Assembly: GCA_023512105.1 (NCBI GenBank)
Contig: JAIMAE010000012.1
Span: 1 to 36,990, forward strand
Reading direction: 5' to 3'
From: Bacillota bacterium
Lineage (GTDB): Bacteria; Bacillota; Sulfobacillia; Sulfobacillales; Sulfobacillaceae
Length of the DNA stretch: 36,990 nt
How positions within the stretch are numbered: position 1 is the stretch's first letter; each line of letters opens with the position of its first letter. Below are positions 4,006 to 32,004 of this stretch, piece after piece. The position numbers were made by a program, and so were the translations under genes. Under the pieces are notes generated by a model. The model did not search any database. It was not told the origin of the DNA and worked only from the letters and a program-made list of their open reading frames with translations.

Positions 4006-6090
4006 GTGGCCTCAAAGCCTTTGATCATCGTGGAGTCGCCGGCCAAAGCGAAGACGATCAGCCGGTTTTTAGGGAATCGCTACCAGGTCAAGGCATCCCT
4101 AGGACACGTCCGCGACCTGCCCAAAAGCCAATTCGGGGTAGACATTGAACATGGTTTTCAGCCGCATTACATCACCATCCGCGGAAAAGGTCCCTTGCTC
4201 AAGGAGCTGAGAGAGGCAGCCAAAAAGACCGACAAGGTCTACTTGGCGACCGACCCTGACCGCGAAGGGGAGGCCATCTCCTGGCATCTGGCCGAACTGT
4301 TGGGGTTGGACCCTCAGAGCGCGCGGCGGATCGAGTTTCACGAGATTACTAAGGACGCGGTGACGGCGGCGATCAAGCACGCCCGTCCGATCAACATGCA
4401 CCTGGTCAACGCCCAGCAAGCGCGTCGGATCTTGGACCGGGTGGTGGGCTACCAACTCTCGCCGTTGCTCTGGCGCAAGGTGCGTCCAGGGTTATCCGCC
4501 GGCCGGGTGCAGTCGACCGCGTTGCGCCTGCTGGTGGAACGCGAAGATGCCATCGCCGCCTTTCGGCCAGAAGAGTACTTTACCATCCACCTCCTGCTGG
4601 ACCATCCGGAAGGGCAGTGGAAGGCGCAATACGTCGGGCCCCTGGGCGAAAAAGGACGTCTACGACCCGAGGACGTCGAGGTGATTCGGCGCGACATCGA
4701 GGGGAAGTCTGCGCAGGTGGTCAGCGTGCGCGAGCGCGAGCGGCGCCGGTATGCTCCCAAGCCGTTTACCACCTCGACGCTGCAGCAGGAAGCCGGGCGC
4801 AAGCTGGGATTTACCGTGCGACGCACCATGGCCCTGGCCCAGCAGCTCTACGAAGGGCTGGAGGTTCCGGGCGAGGGGATGGTGGGGCTGGTCACCTACA
4901 TCCGCACCGACTCGACTCGGGTGGCCGATTCCGCCCGAGCGGAAGCGCGGCAGTGGATTCTCCAACAGTTTGGGCCCGCCTTCGTCGGGGGAGCGACGCG
5001 CAAGGAAAAAGAGCGCCCAGGGGTTCAAAACGCCCACGAGGCGATTCGACCGACCTCTACTTTGAGGCGGCCAGAGATTTTTAAAGAGGCGCTGCAGCGC
5101 GACCAGCTTCGCTTGTATCGGCTGATTTGGGAACGCTTCGTGGCCAGTCAAATGGCCCCGGCGGTGTATCAGGTCTACACCGTGGAGCTGGAGGTAGGCG
5201 GCCATCGCTTTCGCGCCACCGCCTCCACGTTGGCCTTTCCTGGGTACCGCGAGGTGTATCAGGAAACCCCGGAGGAGGGTCAAGAGGAGGGCGGCGACAG
5301 CGGGCGGGTGCCGCGGCTGTCCGAAGGGGACTGGGTGAACGTGGCGGGAGTCCACGCCGAGCAGCATTTTACCGAGCCCCCTCCGCGCTTTACCGAGGCC
5401 AGCTTGGTCAAGACCCTGGAAGAACTGGGGATCGGGCGGCCTTCGACCTACGCGCCCACCATCGAAACGCTACTGGCCCGAGAGTACGTGGTCAGAGAGC
5501 AACGCCGGCTGGTGCCCACCGAATTGGGGCGGGTGGTGGTCGAGCTGCTCAGCCGCTACTTCCCCAAGATCGTCGACGTCCATTTTACCGCCGAGATCGA
5601 GTCCCAACTCGACCAAGTGGAAGCCGCCGAGCTGGAGTGGCAGGAGATTTTGCGCCGCTTCTACGAACCGTTTCAAGCCGAATTGGCCCAGGCCGAGGAG
5701 GACATCGGTCGGGTTGCGGTGCCCGACGAGACCACCGACGAGGTCTGCGAGCGCTGCGGGCGGCCGATGGTGGTCAAACATGGGCGGTTTGGCAAATTCC
5801 TGGCCTGCAGTGGATATCCGGACTGTACCTTCACCAAACCCTATCTGGAGAAGGCGGGTGGCTCGTGCCCGCGCTGCGGGGCGCCGCTGGTGGTGCGGCG
5901 CACCCGGCGGGGACGGCAGTTCTACGGCTGCAGCCGCTATCCCAGCTGCGACTTCGTCACCTGGTATCGCCCCAGCGAAGAGCGTTGCCCGCGCTGCCAA
6001 AGCAGCATGGCCTACAAGCGGCGAGGACAGCAGGAGAGCCTGGTCTGTCTGAGGGAGGGGTGTGGCTATGAGGAAGACCGCGCCTTGTGA
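4006..6090 (+). CDS. topA: DNA topoisomerase I (type IA)
   Basis: Relaxes negative supercoils by cutting one DNA strand through a tyrosine intermediate. The 694-residue product begins with the TOPRIM domain (PLIIVESPAKAKTI, with DPDREGEA as the metal-binding motif) and has the active-site Tyr298 in YIRTDSTR. Three C-terminal four-cysteine zinc ribbons follow: CERCG...CSGYPDC, CPRCG...CSRYPSC and CPRCQ...CLREGC. The start is GTG 4006 with GGAGGAGG at 3991-3998; GTG 4001 is out of frame. trmFO starts inside the last 23 bases. Confidence 0.98.
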   Translation: MASKPLIIVESPAKAKTISRFLGNRYQVKASLGHVRDLPKSQFGVDIEHGFQPHYITIRGKGPLLKELREAAKKTDKVYLATDPDREGEAISWHLAELLGLDPQSARRIEFHEITKDAVTAAIKHARPINMHLVNAQQARRILDRVVGYQLSPLLWRKVRPGLSAGRVQSTALRLLVEREDAIAAFRPEEYFTIHLLLDHPEGQWKAQYVGPLGEKGRLRPEDVEVIRRDIEGKSAQVVSVRERERRRYAPKPFTTSTLQQEAGRKLGFTVRRTMALAQQLYEGLEVPGEGMVGLVTYIRTDSTRVADSARAEARQWILQQFGPAFVGGATRKEKERPGVQNAHEAIRPTSTLRRPEIFKEALQRDQLRLYRLIWERFVASQMAPAVYQVYTVELEVGGHRFRATASTLAFPGYREVYQETPEEGQEEGGDSGRVPRLSEGDWVNVAGVHAEQHFTEPPPRFTEASLVKTLEELGIGRPSTYAPTIETLLAREYVVREQRRLVPTELGRVVVELLSRYFPKIVDVHFTAEIESQLDQVEAAELEWQEILRRFYEPFQAELAQAEEDIGRVAVPDETTDEVCERCGRPMVVKHGRFGKFLACSGYPDCTFTKPYLEKAGGSCPRCGAPLVVRRTRRGRQFYGCSRYPSCDFVTWYRPSEERCPRCQSSMAYKRRGQQESLVCLREGCGYEEDRAL

Positions 6091-15628: not shown

Positions 15629-16228
15629 ATGTTCCCCCTCGAGGACTGCGACGGAGTGGTCTTGGCGGGAGGGCGCTCGCGCCGCATGGGGGAAGATAAA
15701 TATCGGCTGGATTGGCCGAATGGACCCACCTTGGGAGAATATCAACGGCGACAGTTGGCCCAGTGCGTCCGCGGTCGGGTGTGGGTGGCCCGCGGGCGCT
15801 ACCCGCTGACTCGCCCCGAGGAGTTGCCCGACCCTCCATTGGGGGAAGGGCCGCTGGCTGGAATCCTGGCCGCGATGGAGGTCAGCGCCGCCCGTCGGCT
15901 GGCGGTCTTGCCGGTCGACGTGCCGGGAGCTGCCCCAGAGGCGTTTGTGTGGCTGGGGGAGGCGCCAGTGGCCCAAGAGGGTCTACGCCTGGTGGTCGCC
16001 CAAGCCGCCGACGGCAGGTTGCAACCCCTGGTGGGGATCTGGCCGGTCGCCTTGCGCGCCGGCCTTTGCGCCTATCTCGCCCAGGGAGGGCGGCGCGTTG
16101 TAGAATTTGTGGCGAAGCAGGACCCAATCGTGGTACGCCTGCCGCCATCGGTCCAACTGGCCAACCTGAACACGCCGGAGGAGCTGAAAGCCTACCTGGG
16201 GCGCATTCAGGAGCATCCCCCCGCCTAG
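15629..16228 (+). CDS. mobA: Molybdenum cofactor guanylyltransferase MobA
   Basis: Transfers GMP from GTP to molybdopterin to make the dinucleotide form of the cofactor. The 199-residue product has the nucleotide-binding LAGGRSRRMGEDK (12-24), a GPLAGILAAM segment, a metal-binding Asp97 in PVDVPG (usually CDMP) and the C-terminal NLNTPEEL. It starts three bases after livF. Its stop codon lies inside a 20-base palindrome that precedes mobB. MobA suggests a bis-MGD enzyme such as formate dehydrogenase or nitrate reductase elsewhere in the genome. Confidence 0.93.
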   Translation: MFPLEDCDGVVLAGGRSRRMGEDKYRLDWPNGPTLGEYQRRQLAQCVRGRVWVARGRYPLTRPEELPDPPLGEGPLAGILAAMEVSAARRLAVLPVDVPGAAPEAFVWLGEAPVAQEGLRLVVAQAADGRLQPLVGIWPVALRAGLCAYLAQGGRRVVEFVAKQDPIVVRLPPSVQLANLNTPEELKAYLGRIQEHPPA

Positions 16229-16236
16229 GCGGGGGG
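16217..16236. repeat. 20-base perfect palindrome across the mobA stop codon
   Basis: Six C, GCC, TA, GGC, six G: a fully self-complementary 20-base run centred on CCTAGG, with the mobA TAG at 16226-16228. No T run follows, so it is not a standard terminator. It could limit coupling between mobA and mobB. Confidence 0.6.
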
Positions 16237-16272
16237 GTTGGCCGCTTTCAGGAAGGAGCGAGACCGTCCAAG

Positions 16273-16788
16273 GTGGCGACGCGGTTTTTGCAGATCGTGG
16301 GATGGTCGGGGACCGGAAAGACTCGGCTGGTGACGGCACTGGGCCAGCTCCTGCCGGTGGCGGTCTACTTGAAGTGGACCCATCACGCCTTGCCTGCCGA
16401 GCGGGAGCAGTCGGACACCGGGCGCATGAGCTCCTTGGCTCGCCTGACCGCGCTGCTGGCCCCCGAGGGCGGGCTGGTGCGCGGGCCTTTGCACTGGCGC
16501 CACTGGTACCTGGCTGCGGCAGCCTGGGCGCCGCCTGACGGCCTTTGCCTGATCGAGGGAGGAAAGCGCCTGCCGGTGGCCAAGGTGGCGGTGGGGGAGG
16601 CCAGCGAGGTCAGTGGCTGGCCGGGGGTGCGGGCGGTCATCGGGCCGAGCCCGCCCCCGGAGGGGATGGCTTGGTGTGCGGCCCCGCTCCCGCTGGACGG
16701 GCAAGCCGCCGAGGCCGCCGCCCGATGGATCCTGGAGCATCTGGAGGTCGTGAGCTTTACCCTCGAGGCACTGACAGGCTTGCCGTAA
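16273..16788 (+). CDS. mobB: Molybdopterin-guanine dinucleotide biosynthesis adapter MobB
   Basis: GTP-binding partner of MobA that aids cofactor handling. The product of about 171 residues begins ATRFLQIVGWSGTGKTRLVT, with a P-loop at 10-17, followed by a YLKWTHHAL segment that fits the MobB Lys-His region and the late LIEGGKRLPVAKV element. The start is uncertain. GTG 16273 directly precedes the core and GGAAGGAG lies at 16251-16258, somewhat far upstream. The open frame extends into mobA as a shadow. Confidence 0.85.
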   Translation: MATRFLQIVGWSGTGKTRLVTALGQLLPVAVYLKWTHHALPAEREQSDTGRMSSLARLTALLAPEGGLVRGPLHWRHWYLAAAAWAPPDGLCLIEGGKRLPVAKVAVGEASEVSGWPGVRAVIGPSPPPEGMAWCAAPLPLDGQAAEAAARWILEHLEVVSFTLEALTGLP

Positions 16789-16818
16789 ACCGCGCCCAAT
16801 TCGGTAGCGAGGGGGAAC

Positions 16819-18075
16819 ATGGAAGCACCGTACCTTTCCGTGGCCGATGCCGTGGCCACCATCACCGCGCACCTGCAACCGATCGCCGAAGCGGTGTGGC
16901 GACCGCTCTCCCAACTGGCGGGCGCGACCTTGGCCCGCCCGGTGTCGGCGGTCCGCCCGCTCCCTCCCTTCGACCGCGCGGCCATGGATGGCTATGCCCT
17001 GCGCAGCCAAGACCTTCCCGGGCGGCTCAGGGTGGTGGGAACGGCAAGGGCTGGCGGCCGGGTTCCCTTTCGGGTGGGCGCTGGCGAGGCTGCCCGGATC
17101 CTGACCGGGGCCCCGTTGCCGCCAGGGGCGGACACGGTGGTGGAACAAGAAGCGGTGGCTCGGGAGTCGGAATGGGTGGTGCTGGATCGGGCGTACCCAC
17201 CGGGACGCAACATCATGGTCCGGGGAGGCGAGGCTGCCGCTGGCGCGGTGGTCTTGGAGGCCGGGCAACGGCTGACCCCGCTCGAGGTGGGGCTGTTGGC
17301 CGGGCTTGGGGTGAGCGGCGCTTGGGTGGTGCGTCCCCCGCGGGTGTTGTTGGCGGTGAGCGGCGACGAGGCGGTGATGCCAGGCCAGCCGCTCCGGCCG
17401 GGGCAGATTTGGGACAGCAACGGGCCGCTGCTCTGCGCTTGGCTTAAGGCGCTGGGGGCGGAAGTCGCGGGCCCGGTGCCCCTGCGGGACCAGCCGACGG
17501 CGGTGCGCAGGTTCTTTCGCCACAACGACCTTGGCCCGTTTGACCTGATTGTCACCACCGGCGGGGTCTCGGTGGGCGACCGCGACTACATCATTCAATT
17601 TTTGAAGGCTTCGGCCGAGCTTTGGTTTTGGCGCCTCGATATGCACCCGGGCAAGGCGATGGCAGCGGCCGGGGTGGCGGGGAAACCGGTGCTGGCACTC
17701 TCCGGCAACCCCGGGGCGGCCCTGATGGGTTGGCATCTGGTGGTGGTGCCGGTATTGGCCCACCTGATGGGAGGCACCTGGCAGCCCCGGCGGCTGGTCG
17801 GACAGTTGGCCCGCCCTTACCCGAAGCCCACCCGAGAGACTCGGTACCTGCGGGCGCAACTCACCTCCGACGCCGAGGGGCGGTTGTGGGTGGACTGGGA
17901 GCTGGACCAGGGCTCAGACGTGCTCAGCTCGTGGGCCCTGGCTGACGGGTTGGCGGTGATCCCCCGCCACTCCCCTCCACTGCCGCGGGAACACCCGGTC
18001 GAGGTCTGGCTCCTGCCACACCTTGGTCGGGCAAACTATGCCTGGTGGGGCAGGGGCTCTGGACAAAAATTTTGA
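16819..18075 (+). CDS. moeA: Molybdopterin molybdenumtransferase MoeA
   Basis: Inserts molybdate into adenylylated molybdopterin. The 418-residue product has the MoeA segments PFDRAAMDGYAL, RILTGAPLPPGADTVVEQE, the domain III motif TTGGVSVGDRDY and ALSGNPGAAL, at normal family length. GAGGGGGAA just precedes the ATG. It completes a mobA-mobB-moeA group; the pterin-building genes (moaA and others) are not in the window. The last codons overlap a candidate promoter for marR. Confidence 0.96.
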   Translation: MEAPYLSVADAVATITAHLQPIAEAVWRPLSQLAGATLARPVSAVRPLPPFDRAAMDGYALRSQDLPGRLRVVGTARAGGRVPFRVGAGEAARILTGAPLPPGADTVVEQEAVARESEWVVLDRAYPPGRNIMVRGGEAAAGAVVLEAGQRLTPLEVGLLAGLGVSGAWVVRPPRVLLAVSGDEAVMPGQPLRPGQIWDSNGPLLCAWLKALGAEVAGPVPLRDQPTAVRRFFRHNDLGPFDLIVTTGGVSVGDRDYIIQFLKASAELWFWRLDMHPGKAMAAAGVAGKPVLALSGNPGAALMGWHLVVVPVLAHLMGGTWQPRRLVGQLARPYPKPTRETRYLRAQLTSDAEGRLWVDWELDQGSDVLSSWALADGLAVIPRHSPPLPREHPVEVWLLPHLGRANYAWWGRGSGQKF

Positions 18076-20665: not shown

Positions 20666-21604
20666 ATGGAGACCGAACGGGAAGACCCCGAGCGCGTCGA
20701 GGCGTTTTTGCAGCGCATCGACCGCGGAGAGCGGATCGAGGCCGACGACTGGATGCCGGCCGACTACCGCCGGCAGCTGATCCGCCTGATCGCCATGCAC
20801 GGGGTCAGCGAAATCATGGGCGCGCTTCCGGAAAAGGAGTGGGTGCCCAAGGCTCCCACGCTGTACCGCAAGTTGGCGATCATGGCCAAGGTGCAAGACG
20901 AAATCGGCCATGGCCAACTGTTGATTCGGGTCGCGGAGGACCTTTTGGCGCCGCTGGGGAAGACCCGCGAAGACTTATTGGACGACCTGTTCAGCGGCCG
21001 CCTGAAGTTTCACAACGTCTTTCACATGCCGGCCCCCACCTGGGCAGACGCCGGGATCATCGCCTGGCTGGTCGATGGGGCCGCCATCATCACCCAGGGG
21101 ATGTCGCTCTCCTCCTCCTACGCCCCCTACGTGCGCGCCTTGCAGCGGATCGTGGAGGAGGAAGGCTTTCACATTCAACACGGGGAGAGCATCTGCATGG
21201 CCCTGGCCGAGGGCAGCCCGAGCCAACGCAAGAGTCTACAGGAGGCGTTGGAACGTTGGTGGCCGGCTCTCATGATGTTCTTCGGACCGCGCGAGACCGA
21301 TCAGGCCACCAGTCATCAACAGGCCAACCTGCGCTACCGGATCCGCACCAAGACCAACGAGGAATTACGGCAGCGGTTTTTGACCAAGTACGTACCCCGG
21401 ATTCGCTCGCTGGGTCTGGTCCCTCCCGACCCCACCTTGCACTTCGACGCCGAAAAAGGCGAGTGGGTCTACCAGCAGCCGGATTGGAACTGGTTTCGAC
21501 AGATCATCAACAACCAAGGTCCGCGGTCGCAGGCTCGGTTGACCCTCAAGCACTTGACCTACGAAGAAGGCCGCTGGGCGCGGGCGGTACTGGCCCAGGC
21601 CTGA
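20666..21604 (+). CDS. paaA: 1,2-phenylacetyl-CoA epoxidase, catalytic subunit A
   Basis: Di-iron oxygenase subunit that epoxidises the ring of phenylacetyl-CoA, the first committed step of aerobic phenylacetate breakdown. The 312-residue product has the carboxylate-bridged iron ligands in DEIGHGQ (Asp78-Glu79-x-x-His82) and EEEGFHIQHG (Glu165, His169). Long family segments such as KFHNVFHMPAPTWADAG and FFGPRETDQATSH are also present. Start ATG 20666 has AAGGAGGGAG at 20648-20657. paaB and paaC follow in the same direction. The usual paaD and the reductase paaE are not in this cluster. Confidence 0.96.
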   Translation: METEREDPERVEAFLQRIDRGERIEADDWMPADYRRQLIRLIAMHGVSEIMGALPEKEWVPKAPTLYRKLAIMAKVQDEIGHGQLLIRVAEDLLAPLGKTREDLLDDLFSGRLKFHNVFHMPAPTWADAGIIAWLVDGAAIITQGMSLSSSYAPYVRALQRIVEEEGFHIQHGESICMALAEGSPSQRKSLQEALERWWPALMMFFGPRETDQATSHQQANLRYRIRTKTNEELRQRFLTKYVPRIRSLGLVPPDPTLHFDAEKGEWVYQQPDWNWFRQIINNQGPRSQARLTLKHLTYEEGRWARAVLAQA

Positions 21605-21646
21605 GCCAAGCGGCAAGTCTGGCAGCTGACGAAGGAGGGTGCGAGC

Positions 21647-21964
21647 GTGGACCGCTTGACCTTTGACATCTACGAGGTGTTTGCCCAAACCGACCCCCTG
21701 GCGCCTCACCAACATCAATTCAGCCTTTTGGCTTCCTCCCCGGAGATGGCCTTGGCTTTGGCCCAGGAAAACTTCCTGCGCCGACGCGAGATCTACAGCA
21801 TCTGGGTGGTGCGCCGCGACGCCATCACCCAAAGTGGGCCGGCCGAACGCGCCCGCTTCTACCGCCGCAAGAAGGGCTACCGCACGACCGAGGATTACCG
21901 CTACCTGGTGGAGAAATGGCGGCGGTACAAGCAACAGCCGATGACCCCGGAGACCATGGTCTGA
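21647..21964 (+). CDS. paaB: 1,2-phenylacetyl-CoA epoxidase subunit B
   Basis: Small subunit of the epoxidase complex, without iron, thought to help oligomerisation. The 105-residue product has the family pattern: FDIYEVFAQTDPLAPHQHQFSLLASSPEMALALAQENFLRR and WVVRRDAI. The start is GTG 21647 with AAGGAGGG at 21632-21639. It lies 42 bases after paaA and 14 before paaC. Confidence 0.95.
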   Translation: MDRLTFDIYEVFAQTDPLAPHQHQFSLLASSPEMALALAQENFLRRREIYSIWVVRRDAITQSGPAERARFYRRKKGYRTTEDYRYLVEKWRRYKQQPMTPETMV

Positions 21965-21978
21965 AAGGAGGGGCCAAG

Positions 21979-22797
21979 ATGGCAGCAAGCGTACGCGACC
22001 CGGAGGAGGCCAAGGCCACGCCCGATTTTCCTGCGCTTTCGGAGCTTTTGTGGCAGCTGGCCGACGATGACCTGTTGATCGGGTTTCGGGCCAGCGAATG
22101 GCTGGGGCTGGGAGTTCACATCGAAGAGGACATCGCCTTTGCCTCCATCGCCCAAGACGAGATGGGCCACGCCATGACCTATTTCCAACTGCTCGAGGCC
22201 CTGGGGATGGGGCGGGCCGACGACCTGGCCCAGCTCAGGCCGGTCTCAGAACGGCGTAACAGCATCCTGGTGGAGTGGCCGAACGGGGAGGGCGACTATG
22301 CAGAGACCCCGCATTTTGACTGGGCCTTTACCCTGGTCCGCCACTTTTTGTACGATCAGTTTGAGATCATTCGCCTCGAAGGCTTGTGCCAAAGCCGCTA
22401 CGCGCCGCTGGCGGAGGCGGCGGCCGCCATTCTGGGGGAAAAGGCGTACCACCGCGATCACCAGCAACTGTGGCTGGACCGGCTGTTGACCCACGGGGCG
22501 GAGAGCAGGGCTCGGGTGGAGCGGGCCGTGGCCCAGGCCGCGCAGCTGGCGGGCGATTTGACCGACCTTGGACCTTGGGGGAACCAGGTGGCCGAGGCCG
22601 GGTGGTGGCCAGGGGCGGACCAGGCCGGGGCGCGGTGGCAACAGGCGGTAGAAAGCTTCCTGGGGCGCTATCAATTGGCGCCTCCCACCTGGTCTTGCCC
22701 CGGGAATGGGCGCCGGGGGGACCACAGCCCCCATTTGGATGCCGCCCTGGCGGTGCTCTCGGAAGTCTACCGACAGGATCCGCTGGCCCAGTGGTAG
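21979..22797 (+). CDS. paaC: 1,2-phenylacetyl-CoA epoxidase subunit C
   Basis: Structural partner of PaaA with the same ferritin-like fold; PaaA and PaaC form the core of the complex. The 272-residue product has LLWQLADDDLLIGFRASEWLG, the EEDIAFASIAQDEMGHAM segment and HFDWAFTLVRHFLYDQFE, all typical. The start is ATG 21979 with AAAGGAGGGG just upstream. No paaD or paaE follows; the next gene is an unrelated peptidase after 91 bases, so electron-transfer and iron-sulfur functions must come from elsewhere. Confidence 0.94.
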   Translation: MAASVRDPEEAKATPDFPALSELLWQLADDDLLIGFRASEWLGLGVHIEEDIAFASIAQDEMGHAMTYFQLLEALGMGRADDLAQLRPVSERRNSILVEWPNGEGDYAETPHFDWAFTLVRHFLYDQFEIIRLEGLCQSRYAPLAEAAAAILGEKAYHRDHQQLWLDRLLTHGAESRARVERAVAQAAQLAGDLTDLGPWGNQVAEAGWWPGADQAGARWQQAVESFLGRYQLAPPTWSCPGNGRRGDHSPHLDAALAVLSEVYRQDPLAQW

Positions 22798-31396: not shown

Positions 31397-31430
31397 GCCA
31401 GGACGCCCTCAGGCGAGGACAAGGCTCCCG

Positions 31431-31459
31431 TAGACAGCCGGGCGGCCCTGCCGTAGAAT
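31431..31459 (+). promoter_or_regulatory. Promoter for the ArsC/Spx-like selenoprotein gene
   Basis: TAGACA (31431-31436), a 17-base spacer, TAGAAT (31454-31459): each hexamer matches five of six consensus positions. Transcription would start near 31466, giving a leader of about 173 bases. Confidence 0.55.
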
Positions 31460-31465
31460 CGTGGC

Positions 31466-31527
31466 AAAGCCGCCTCTTGGGGGCCCGGGGCGGGTGATCC
31501 GGGGCCGGAAAAGCGGCCTCTTGGGGG
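31466..31527 (+). repeat. Two direct repeats in the leader of the selenoprotein gene
   Basis: AAAGCCGCCTCTTGGGGG (31466-31483) and AAAGCGGCCTCTTGGGGG (31510-31527) differ at one of 18 positions and are 44 bases apart. The first copy begins at the predicted transcription start. The rest of the leader is very G+C-rich, with further stems such as GGCCCC (31531-31536) with GGGGCC (31552-31557). Confidence 0.6.
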
Positions 31528-31638
31528 AAGGGCCCCGCGTCCCGGGATGGTGGGGCCTCCCGCGGGCCGCCGTTGGGCGGGTGGCCTGCTCCGGGGGTAA
31601 GCCAATGGCGTCAATGGTTTGATAAGGAGGAAAAGACG

Positions 31639-32004
31639 ATGGCTTGGACGTTTTACCACAAGCATGGCTGAGGGGCCTGCGAGAGCGTGAAAGCGTGGCT
31701 TTCACAACACGAGGTGGCCTACATCGACCGCGATATCCTCACCGAGCCTCCTTCCGTAGAACAGATTTTGCAGTTAGGGCGCCTTTTGCCGCAAGGTGTG
31801 GCGGGATTGGCGCATCCCCGGAAATACCTCGATGGGCAGCCGGCCAACCAAGTGATGGCCCAGTGGGCCCCCGAAGTAGCCGCCGCGCGGCTTCACCAGG
31901 AACCCGACCTCTTCTTGAAGCCGGTGTTGACCGACGGTCAACAGCTGGTCGTCGGACCTGACATGACCCGGTTGGAGGCGTTGCTTCCGGCGCTGAAGGC
32001 CTGA
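31639..32004 (+). CDS. ArsC/Spx-like thioredoxin-fold protein with in-frame TGA (probable selenoprotein)
   Basis: Reading from ATG 31639, with AAGGAGG at 31624-31630 and an 8-base spacer, gives MAWTFYHKHG, a TGA at codon 11 (31669-31671), then GACESVKAWLSQHEVAYIDRD and onward to a stop at 32002-32004. The product is 121 residues if the TGA is read. The TGA falls exactly where ArsC/Spx-type proteins have the first cysteine of CxxC, giving U11-G-A-C14. The rest fits the family: a helix after the motif, a beta strand (VAYIDRDI), a helical insertion, then LFLKPVLTDGQQLVVGPD with the expected cis-proline. A SECIS-like hairpin follows the TGA. TGA is an ordinary stop in many genes here, so local recoding is needed. 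Likely role: thiol/selenol redox enzyme or arsenate reductase-like protein. Alternative: a nonsense mutation or sequencing error. Confidence 0.85.
31669..31720 (+). promoter_or_regulatory. SECIS-like element directly after the in-frame TGA
   Basis: GTGAAAGC (31687-31694) and GCTTTCAC (31698-31705) form a perfect 8-bp stem with loop GTG. The loop begins 23 bases after the TGA and its first base is G, as in bacterial SECIS elements bound by SelB. A lower helix can form between GGGCC (31673-31677) and GGCCT (31716-31720). The hairpin lies within the coding sequence, as expected for bacteria. Confidence 0.75.

Follow-up and report, generated by a model that had tools for sequence, protein, structure and literature searches.

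The window analysed here, a stretch of 36,990 nucleotides, contains a reading frame with a TGA close to its start. The question is whether this TGA ends the protein or is read as selenocysteine (Sec), and what the product would then do. The frame opens at an ATG at position 31639, codon 11 is TGA, and codon 14 is TGC. After codon 11, the frame runs for 110 sense codons to a terminal TGA at 32002-32004, so the sequence bears out the preliminary description of an ATG with a good ribosome-binding site, a TGA at codon 11, and 110 further codons to a stop. When the TGA is translated as Sec, the product has 121 residues, begins with MAWTFYHKHGUGACESVKAWLSQHEVAYIDRDILTEPP..., and carries Sec11-Gly-Ala-Cys14 (UGAC) as its putative active-site motif. 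An open frame of such length at 65% GC would prove little by itself. The frame is lifted beyond chance by an orthologue that matches on both sides of the TGA, by the position of the TGA on a Cys of Spx, and by a stem-loop that is unique in the window. These comparisons make it almost certain that the gene encodes a true selenoprotein, and the computational support makes Sec decoding at codon 11 highly probable. The features are listed in Table 1.

Table 1 Features of the predicted selenoprotein gene, in window coordinates
Feature	Position	Strand	Evidence
Predicted selenoprotein coding sequence, 121 residues, stop included	31639..32004	+	Translation; full-length orthologue with 53% identity; codon-position pattern; dN/dS
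Ribosome-binding site AAGGAGG, 8 nt 5' of the ATG	31624..31630	+	Sequence
In-frame TGA, predicted Sec codon (Sec11 = Spx Cys10)	31669..31671	+	Alignment to Spx and to Sec/Cys homologues
TGC, predicted resolving Cys14 (= Spx Cys13)	31678..31680	+	Alignments
SECIS-like hairpin	31687..31705	+	Pairing in Sec versus Cys homologues; covariation; covariance-model search of its own genome

The closest match among 201 genomes, comprising its own genome and relatives, is G019:C9:592-954 (L022), which aligns over all 121 residues with 53% identity (E 2.4e-40). It is the only close orthologue in this set, has no internal stop, and carries TGC at codon 11. In the contig collection, this orthologue corresponds to PXYV01000106, from a Sulfobacillus acidophilus MAG (isolate AMDSBA3) the draft genome of which was described from Richmond Mine biofilms (PMC4378227). 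The two genes differ by 40, 29, and 71 changes at codon positions 1, 2, and 3, respectively, and the NG86 estimates are 0.36 for dN and 2.3 (saturated) for dS, indicating that the frame is maintained as protein. More distant full-length homologues, with about 22-36% identity, mostly have TGA at the same codon. The preliminary description had proposed to look for Cys or TGA at codon 11 in homologues, and both occur: the closest orthologue has TGC, and the others vary between TGA and Cys.

A search of the contig collection with the two-row alignment returns only the S. acidophilus MAG and, as a match that is short and partial, an Acidobacteria MAG; the same collection searched with the single window protein gives no match. 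Plasmid records contain ordinary Spx only, at 23-28% identity. No related locus is found in viral contigs, and a phage origin was rejected for this reason. The window branch is found in two genomes only, and the TGA is seen once in this branch, since its sole close orthologue has Cys.

A SECIS-like hairpin starts 15 nt 3' of codon 11. Its stem consists of GTGAAAG (31687-31693) and CTTTCAC (31699-31705), which form 7 pairs around the loop CGTGG. The window contains 817 TGA trinucleotides, both strands counted, and codon 11 is the only one with a fully paired stem and a CGTGG loop at this fixed distance; the terminal TGA of the gene has no such stem-loop. At the position of the hairpin, mean pairing is 6.2/7 in 27 Sec homologues versus 3.1/7 in 7 Cys homologues (a contrast independent of L028, a Cys homologue anchored on the wrong Cys in this count), and helices slid out of register reach at most 4.6 pairs. 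When 20 Sec genes are aligned without gaps, 95.7% of the cells in the stem are paired, compared with 82.5% in shuffles, and none of 500 shuffles is as high. Four stem pairs are changed on both sides, in 16 cells in total, and RNAalifold recovers the same helix unprompted. The stem overlaps the K-A-W-L-S codons, and conservation of the hairpin is partly protein-driven through this overlap. The compensatory changes shared by the Sec homologues, and the loss of the stem in Cys relatives that retain W-L, are not protein-driven; the Cys orthologue itself retains W-L and forms 3/7 pairs.

A covariance model of the hairpin, searched against its own genome, finds three places at 51.9, 49.9, and 49.7 bits, followed by the next at 16.1 bits. 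The three places are the window gene and genes on contigs C8 and C120, and all are in-frame TGA codons of thioredoxin-fold genes; the training set included all three loci, which leaves the score gap below them as the informative part. The single-sequence fold energy of the hairpin region is mildly better than that of shuffles (z -1.7). Therefore, the case for a SECIS rests on comparison rather than energy. Rfam reports nothing above threshold in the window.

The genome of origin (3.48 Mb, 404 contigs, 96.8% complete) contains a tRNA-Sec with anticodon UCA, and SelB and SelD above their cut-offs. SelD has an in-frame TGA of its own, followed by a predicted hairpin. SelA has no match in this assembly of 404 contigs. 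Of 61 genomes searched for SelA, 47 have a match above cut-off, and the congener G001 and G019 are among them. The DNA to the left of selA in G001 maps to contig C16 of the genome of origin, to its last base (5548/5548), and the DNA to the right maps to contig C34, to base 5244 of 5247. Since the flanks of selA lie at contig ends, we infer that selA is located in an assembly gap between C16 and C34. The machinery that the preliminary description had named as a check is accordingly present as tRNA-Sec, SelB, and SelD, while SelA is missing from the MAG and its neighbours lie at contig ends.

At least five genes in this genome have an in-frame TGA at a known Sec position or with the hairpin. A formate dehydrogenase homologue (FdhA; C107:45382-47259, minus strand, L099) has its TGA within SCNRTUHAPS and scores 630 bits, slightly under the TIGR01591 cut-off of 666. 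This fits a published report of Sec formate dehydrogenases in all Sulfobacillus genomes (PMC4378227), and a Sec-containing formate dehydrogenase had been guessed in the preliminary description. A second ArsC/Spx-like gene (C8:2834-3157, minus strand, L052) encodes UTTS, without a resolving Cys, and a glutaredoxin-like gene (C120:22576-22731, minus strand, L053) encodes UGPC; both have the same hairpin. The congener G001 has one TGA copy and one Cys copy of the C120-type gene.

The predicted structure places the protein in the ArsC/Spx fold. The AlphaFold2 model, with Cys modelled instead of Sec, has a pLDDT of 97.3. Spx structures rank at the top in Foldseek (E 1.4e-7, TM 0.80). In a second structure comparison, the matches are an ArsC-family protein (Z 16.4, rmsd 2.0 over 115 residues), Spx 3ihq (Z 15.6, rmsd 2.0 over 112 residues), E. 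coli ArsC (Z 11.3, rmsd 2.9 over 116 residues), and several small glutaredoxin-like proteins (Z 8 to 10). By sequence, the PDB match is Spx (E 3.2e-12), and the TGA falls on the first Cys of the Spx CxxC, the position that it had been assigned beforehand. In an alignment of 23 sequences, position 11 (Sec/Cys) and Pro95 are invariant, and Cys14 is nearly invariant.

Family models place the protein less narrowly. The Spx models of NCBIfam match at E 4.5e-11 and 4.2e-8, far below their cut-offs; TIGR01617 (Spx/MgsR) gives 33.5 bits against a cut-off of 75.05. NF041106 (ArsC_rel_Se_1) shares the ArsC-type fold and UxxC (PMC13188914), but the window protein scores 14.9 bits against its cut-off of 85, which none of 10 relatives tested reaches. 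Residues 4-47 match PF00462 (Glutaredoxin) with 29.6 bits, above the gathering score of 22.9, and over its full length the protein has the larger ArsC/Spx architecture.

Compared with B. subtilis Spx (PDB 1z3e, 3gfk, 6gho, 7f75), the window protein shares the fold and the position of the redox pair (Spx residues 10 and 13), with Sec replacing Cys10. It is shorter, with 121 residues against about 131 in Spx, and the fold comparison puts the identity of the two at 24%. Both the window protein and its orthologue retain the residues that align with Spx G52 and R47, and Spx G52 is needed to bind the RNA polymerase alpha C-terminal domain (PMC2801614). At the position of Spx R60, the window protein has R and its orthologue has L; at K62, both have Y, and at R91-R92 they have L-K and L-R, respectively. 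K62 and Arg91 are not retained in the window protein. Spx R60 and K62 act in activation (PMC2801614), and the window branch does not retain these activating residues.

Sec decoding, the fold, and the position of the active site are each supported by computation in the present analysis. We consider it reasonably probable that the reading holds as a whole, namely an ArsC/Spx-fold Sec protein with hairpin-directed decoding that likely acts as a selenol-thiol oxidoreductase. In such a scheme, SelB carrying Sec-tRNA(UCA) would recognise the hairpin, and Sec would be inserted at UGA codon 11 in place of termination. Sec11-Gly-Ala-Cys14 would then lie where the first helix of the thioredoxin-like fold begins, with the conserved Pro95. 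Sec11 would attack a disulfide or another oxidised substrate, Cys14 would resolve the adduct by forming a selenenylsulfide, and the selenoprotein would be regenerated by a thiol system of the cell. UxxC thioredoxin-fold proteins are the basis for Sec attack, Cys resolution, and thiol recycling, and the presumed substrate and reductant are modelled on them likewise. By this analogy, the protein is most likely a glutaredoxin/thioredoxin-like UxxC selenol-thiol oxidoreductase. The homologues, the hairpin, the Sec machinery, and the fold all support the preliminary description as far as it named a Sec-containing ArsC/Spx-like UxxC protein; its word 'reductase' goes further, to a presumed activity. 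The gene context gives no clue to the substrate. The neighbours encode an AMP-binding acyl-CoA synthetase and a Bax1-I membrane protein, and the selenoprotein gene is the only ORF of the window that is matched on the contig of the Cys orthologue.

The protein could instead be a Spx that contains Sec, a regulator that binds RNA polymerase and uses a Sec-Cys selenenylsulfide as its redox switch. The best PDB matches are Spx, the Sec-Cys pair occupies the positions of Spx C10 and C13, and the G52- and R47-aligned residues are in place. In addition, the sole TIGR01617 match in its own genome is the TGA copy, and no Cys-type Spx was found there, which makes the question of a selenium-based regulator testable. 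Against this stand the score of less than half the Spx/MgsR cut-off, the residues at the R60 and K62 positions (R/L and Y/Y in the window protein and orthologue), which in Spx have a role in activation, and the fact that most bacterial Sec residues are catalytic. Weighing these points, we hold this alternative to be improbable, and an oxidoreductase to be the more probable of the two by analogy. A more specific version, in which the Sec-Cys switch of a Spx-kind regulator would sense both the redox state and, through Sec insertion, the selenium supply at RNA polymerase, is distinctly unlikely; if it were true, the Sec ArsC/Spx proteins of most class genomes with the family would constitute a seleno-Spx regulatory family.

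Arsenate reduction, with Sec11 as the nucleophile, is a slightly weaker candidate than a Sec-containing Spx and is unlikely. The ArsC fold is compatible with it, Sec-containing arsenate-reductase-like proteins have been listed in surveys, and no arsC was identified in Sulfobacillus thermotolerans (PMC7409299). However, the window protein has no match to the arsenate reductase equivalog TIGR00014 (cut-off 106 bits) up to E = 1, the orthologue has L in place of the arginine that aligns with Spx R60, and none of the four flanking ORFs scanned contains an arsenic-related Pfam domain.

That the TGA is an ordinary stop, in a pseudogene or through a sequencing error for TGC, with a Cys protein or none as product, is very unlikely and was rejected: the sole close orthologue does carry TGC and the TGA gene is known from one MAG, but the hairpin is paired 7/7 at the correct distance whereas the Cys orthologue keeps less than half of it, it includes a U-A pair of its own at a position that is C-G in most relatives, most distant homologues have TGA at the same codon, the genome has Sec machinery, and the rest of the frame is intact with changes mainly at third codon positions.

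A tree of 28 rows groups the window protein with its orthologue in a single clade (100/100), the stem of which measures 1.62 changes per column. Rows with Cys are dispersed among those with Sec, which takes at least 5 changes of state. In 154 genomes of the class, TIGR01617 has 82 matches, of which 66 have one TGA, 15 have none, and one has a TAG, as tallied by hand from the match table. TGA copies are present in most of the class genomes that have the family. Several of them exceed the curated cut-off, indicating that the NCBI-named Spx/MgsR family includes likely selenoproteins. The TIGR01617 Sec copy of the source genome (C8:2834-3157) is homologous to the window protein and shares the TGA codon and the hairpin, but has about 30% identity to it and lacks the resolving Cys, and the window protein lies in the separate long-stem clade. 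As a separate observation, the Cys member L028 (G086:C26:2115-2453) has an in-frame TAG 32 codons after the Cys, and its genome carries a TGA copy on a different contig.

ArsC-like selenoproteins appear in a 2006 listing (PMC1794560). The Global Ocean Sampling survey of 2008 reported one arsenate reductase with UxxS (pfam03960) and another with UxxC assigned to cd03032 (PMC2398784), which is ArsC_Spx (PMC8755942). A 2026 inventory contains NF041106 with UxxC and TIGR00014 with UxxS, and its table names no Spx family (PMC13188914). Among the open-licence papers searched, we found no study of a Sec-containing Spx. The UxxC type of the ocean survey (Arsenate reductase 2, PMC2398784) shares with the window protein the subfamily label, UxxC, and Sec at the first redox position; it consists of metagenome reads counted in a survey and likened by domain label, whereas the window branch is divergent and has UGAC. 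From these listings, UxxC ArsC_Spx selenoproteins were already known as a kind, and the window gene is a new, rare, and divergent second branch. The caution in the preliminary description that the family may not be new was justified.

Gene callers that treat TGA as a stop end this gene at codon 10 or start it past the active site. In Sulfobacillus-like genomes, this gene and its relatives are therefore easy to overlook or to truncate. Within the bacterial family, 29 of 34 genomes have a TGA copy of TIGR01617 by the same hand tally, which suggests, at the level of sequence, that the Sec ArsC/Spx-like protein is a core selenoprotein of this bacterial family and is common across the class. Together with its orthologue, the window gene forms a Sec/Cys pair within one bacterial family, with selA still in the host genome, and such a pair is useful for studying why Sec is retained or lost.

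Several minor observations concern the genome and the window. A second tRNA (L002 1501-1592, minus strand; C290:8079-8170) has anticodon GCA and U73-CCA and scores 57 bits as tRNA-Sec. It resembles the selC* tRNA-Cys type described in Firmicutes (PMC7609411) and adjoins glmM/glmS-like ORFs, named by eye. The G+C-rich stretch 5' of the selenoprotein gene (31397-31620) contains two copies of the CCTCTTGGGGG motif and matches no Rfam family above threshold. A promoter-like site at 31431-31459 (10/12 match) was given no weight. ORFs resembling mobA, mobB, and moeA, judged by eye, lie near 15629-18075. Consecutive ORFs at 20666-22797 resemble the phenylacetyl-CoA epoxidase subunits paaA, paaB, and paaC, as judged by eye from the ORF list.
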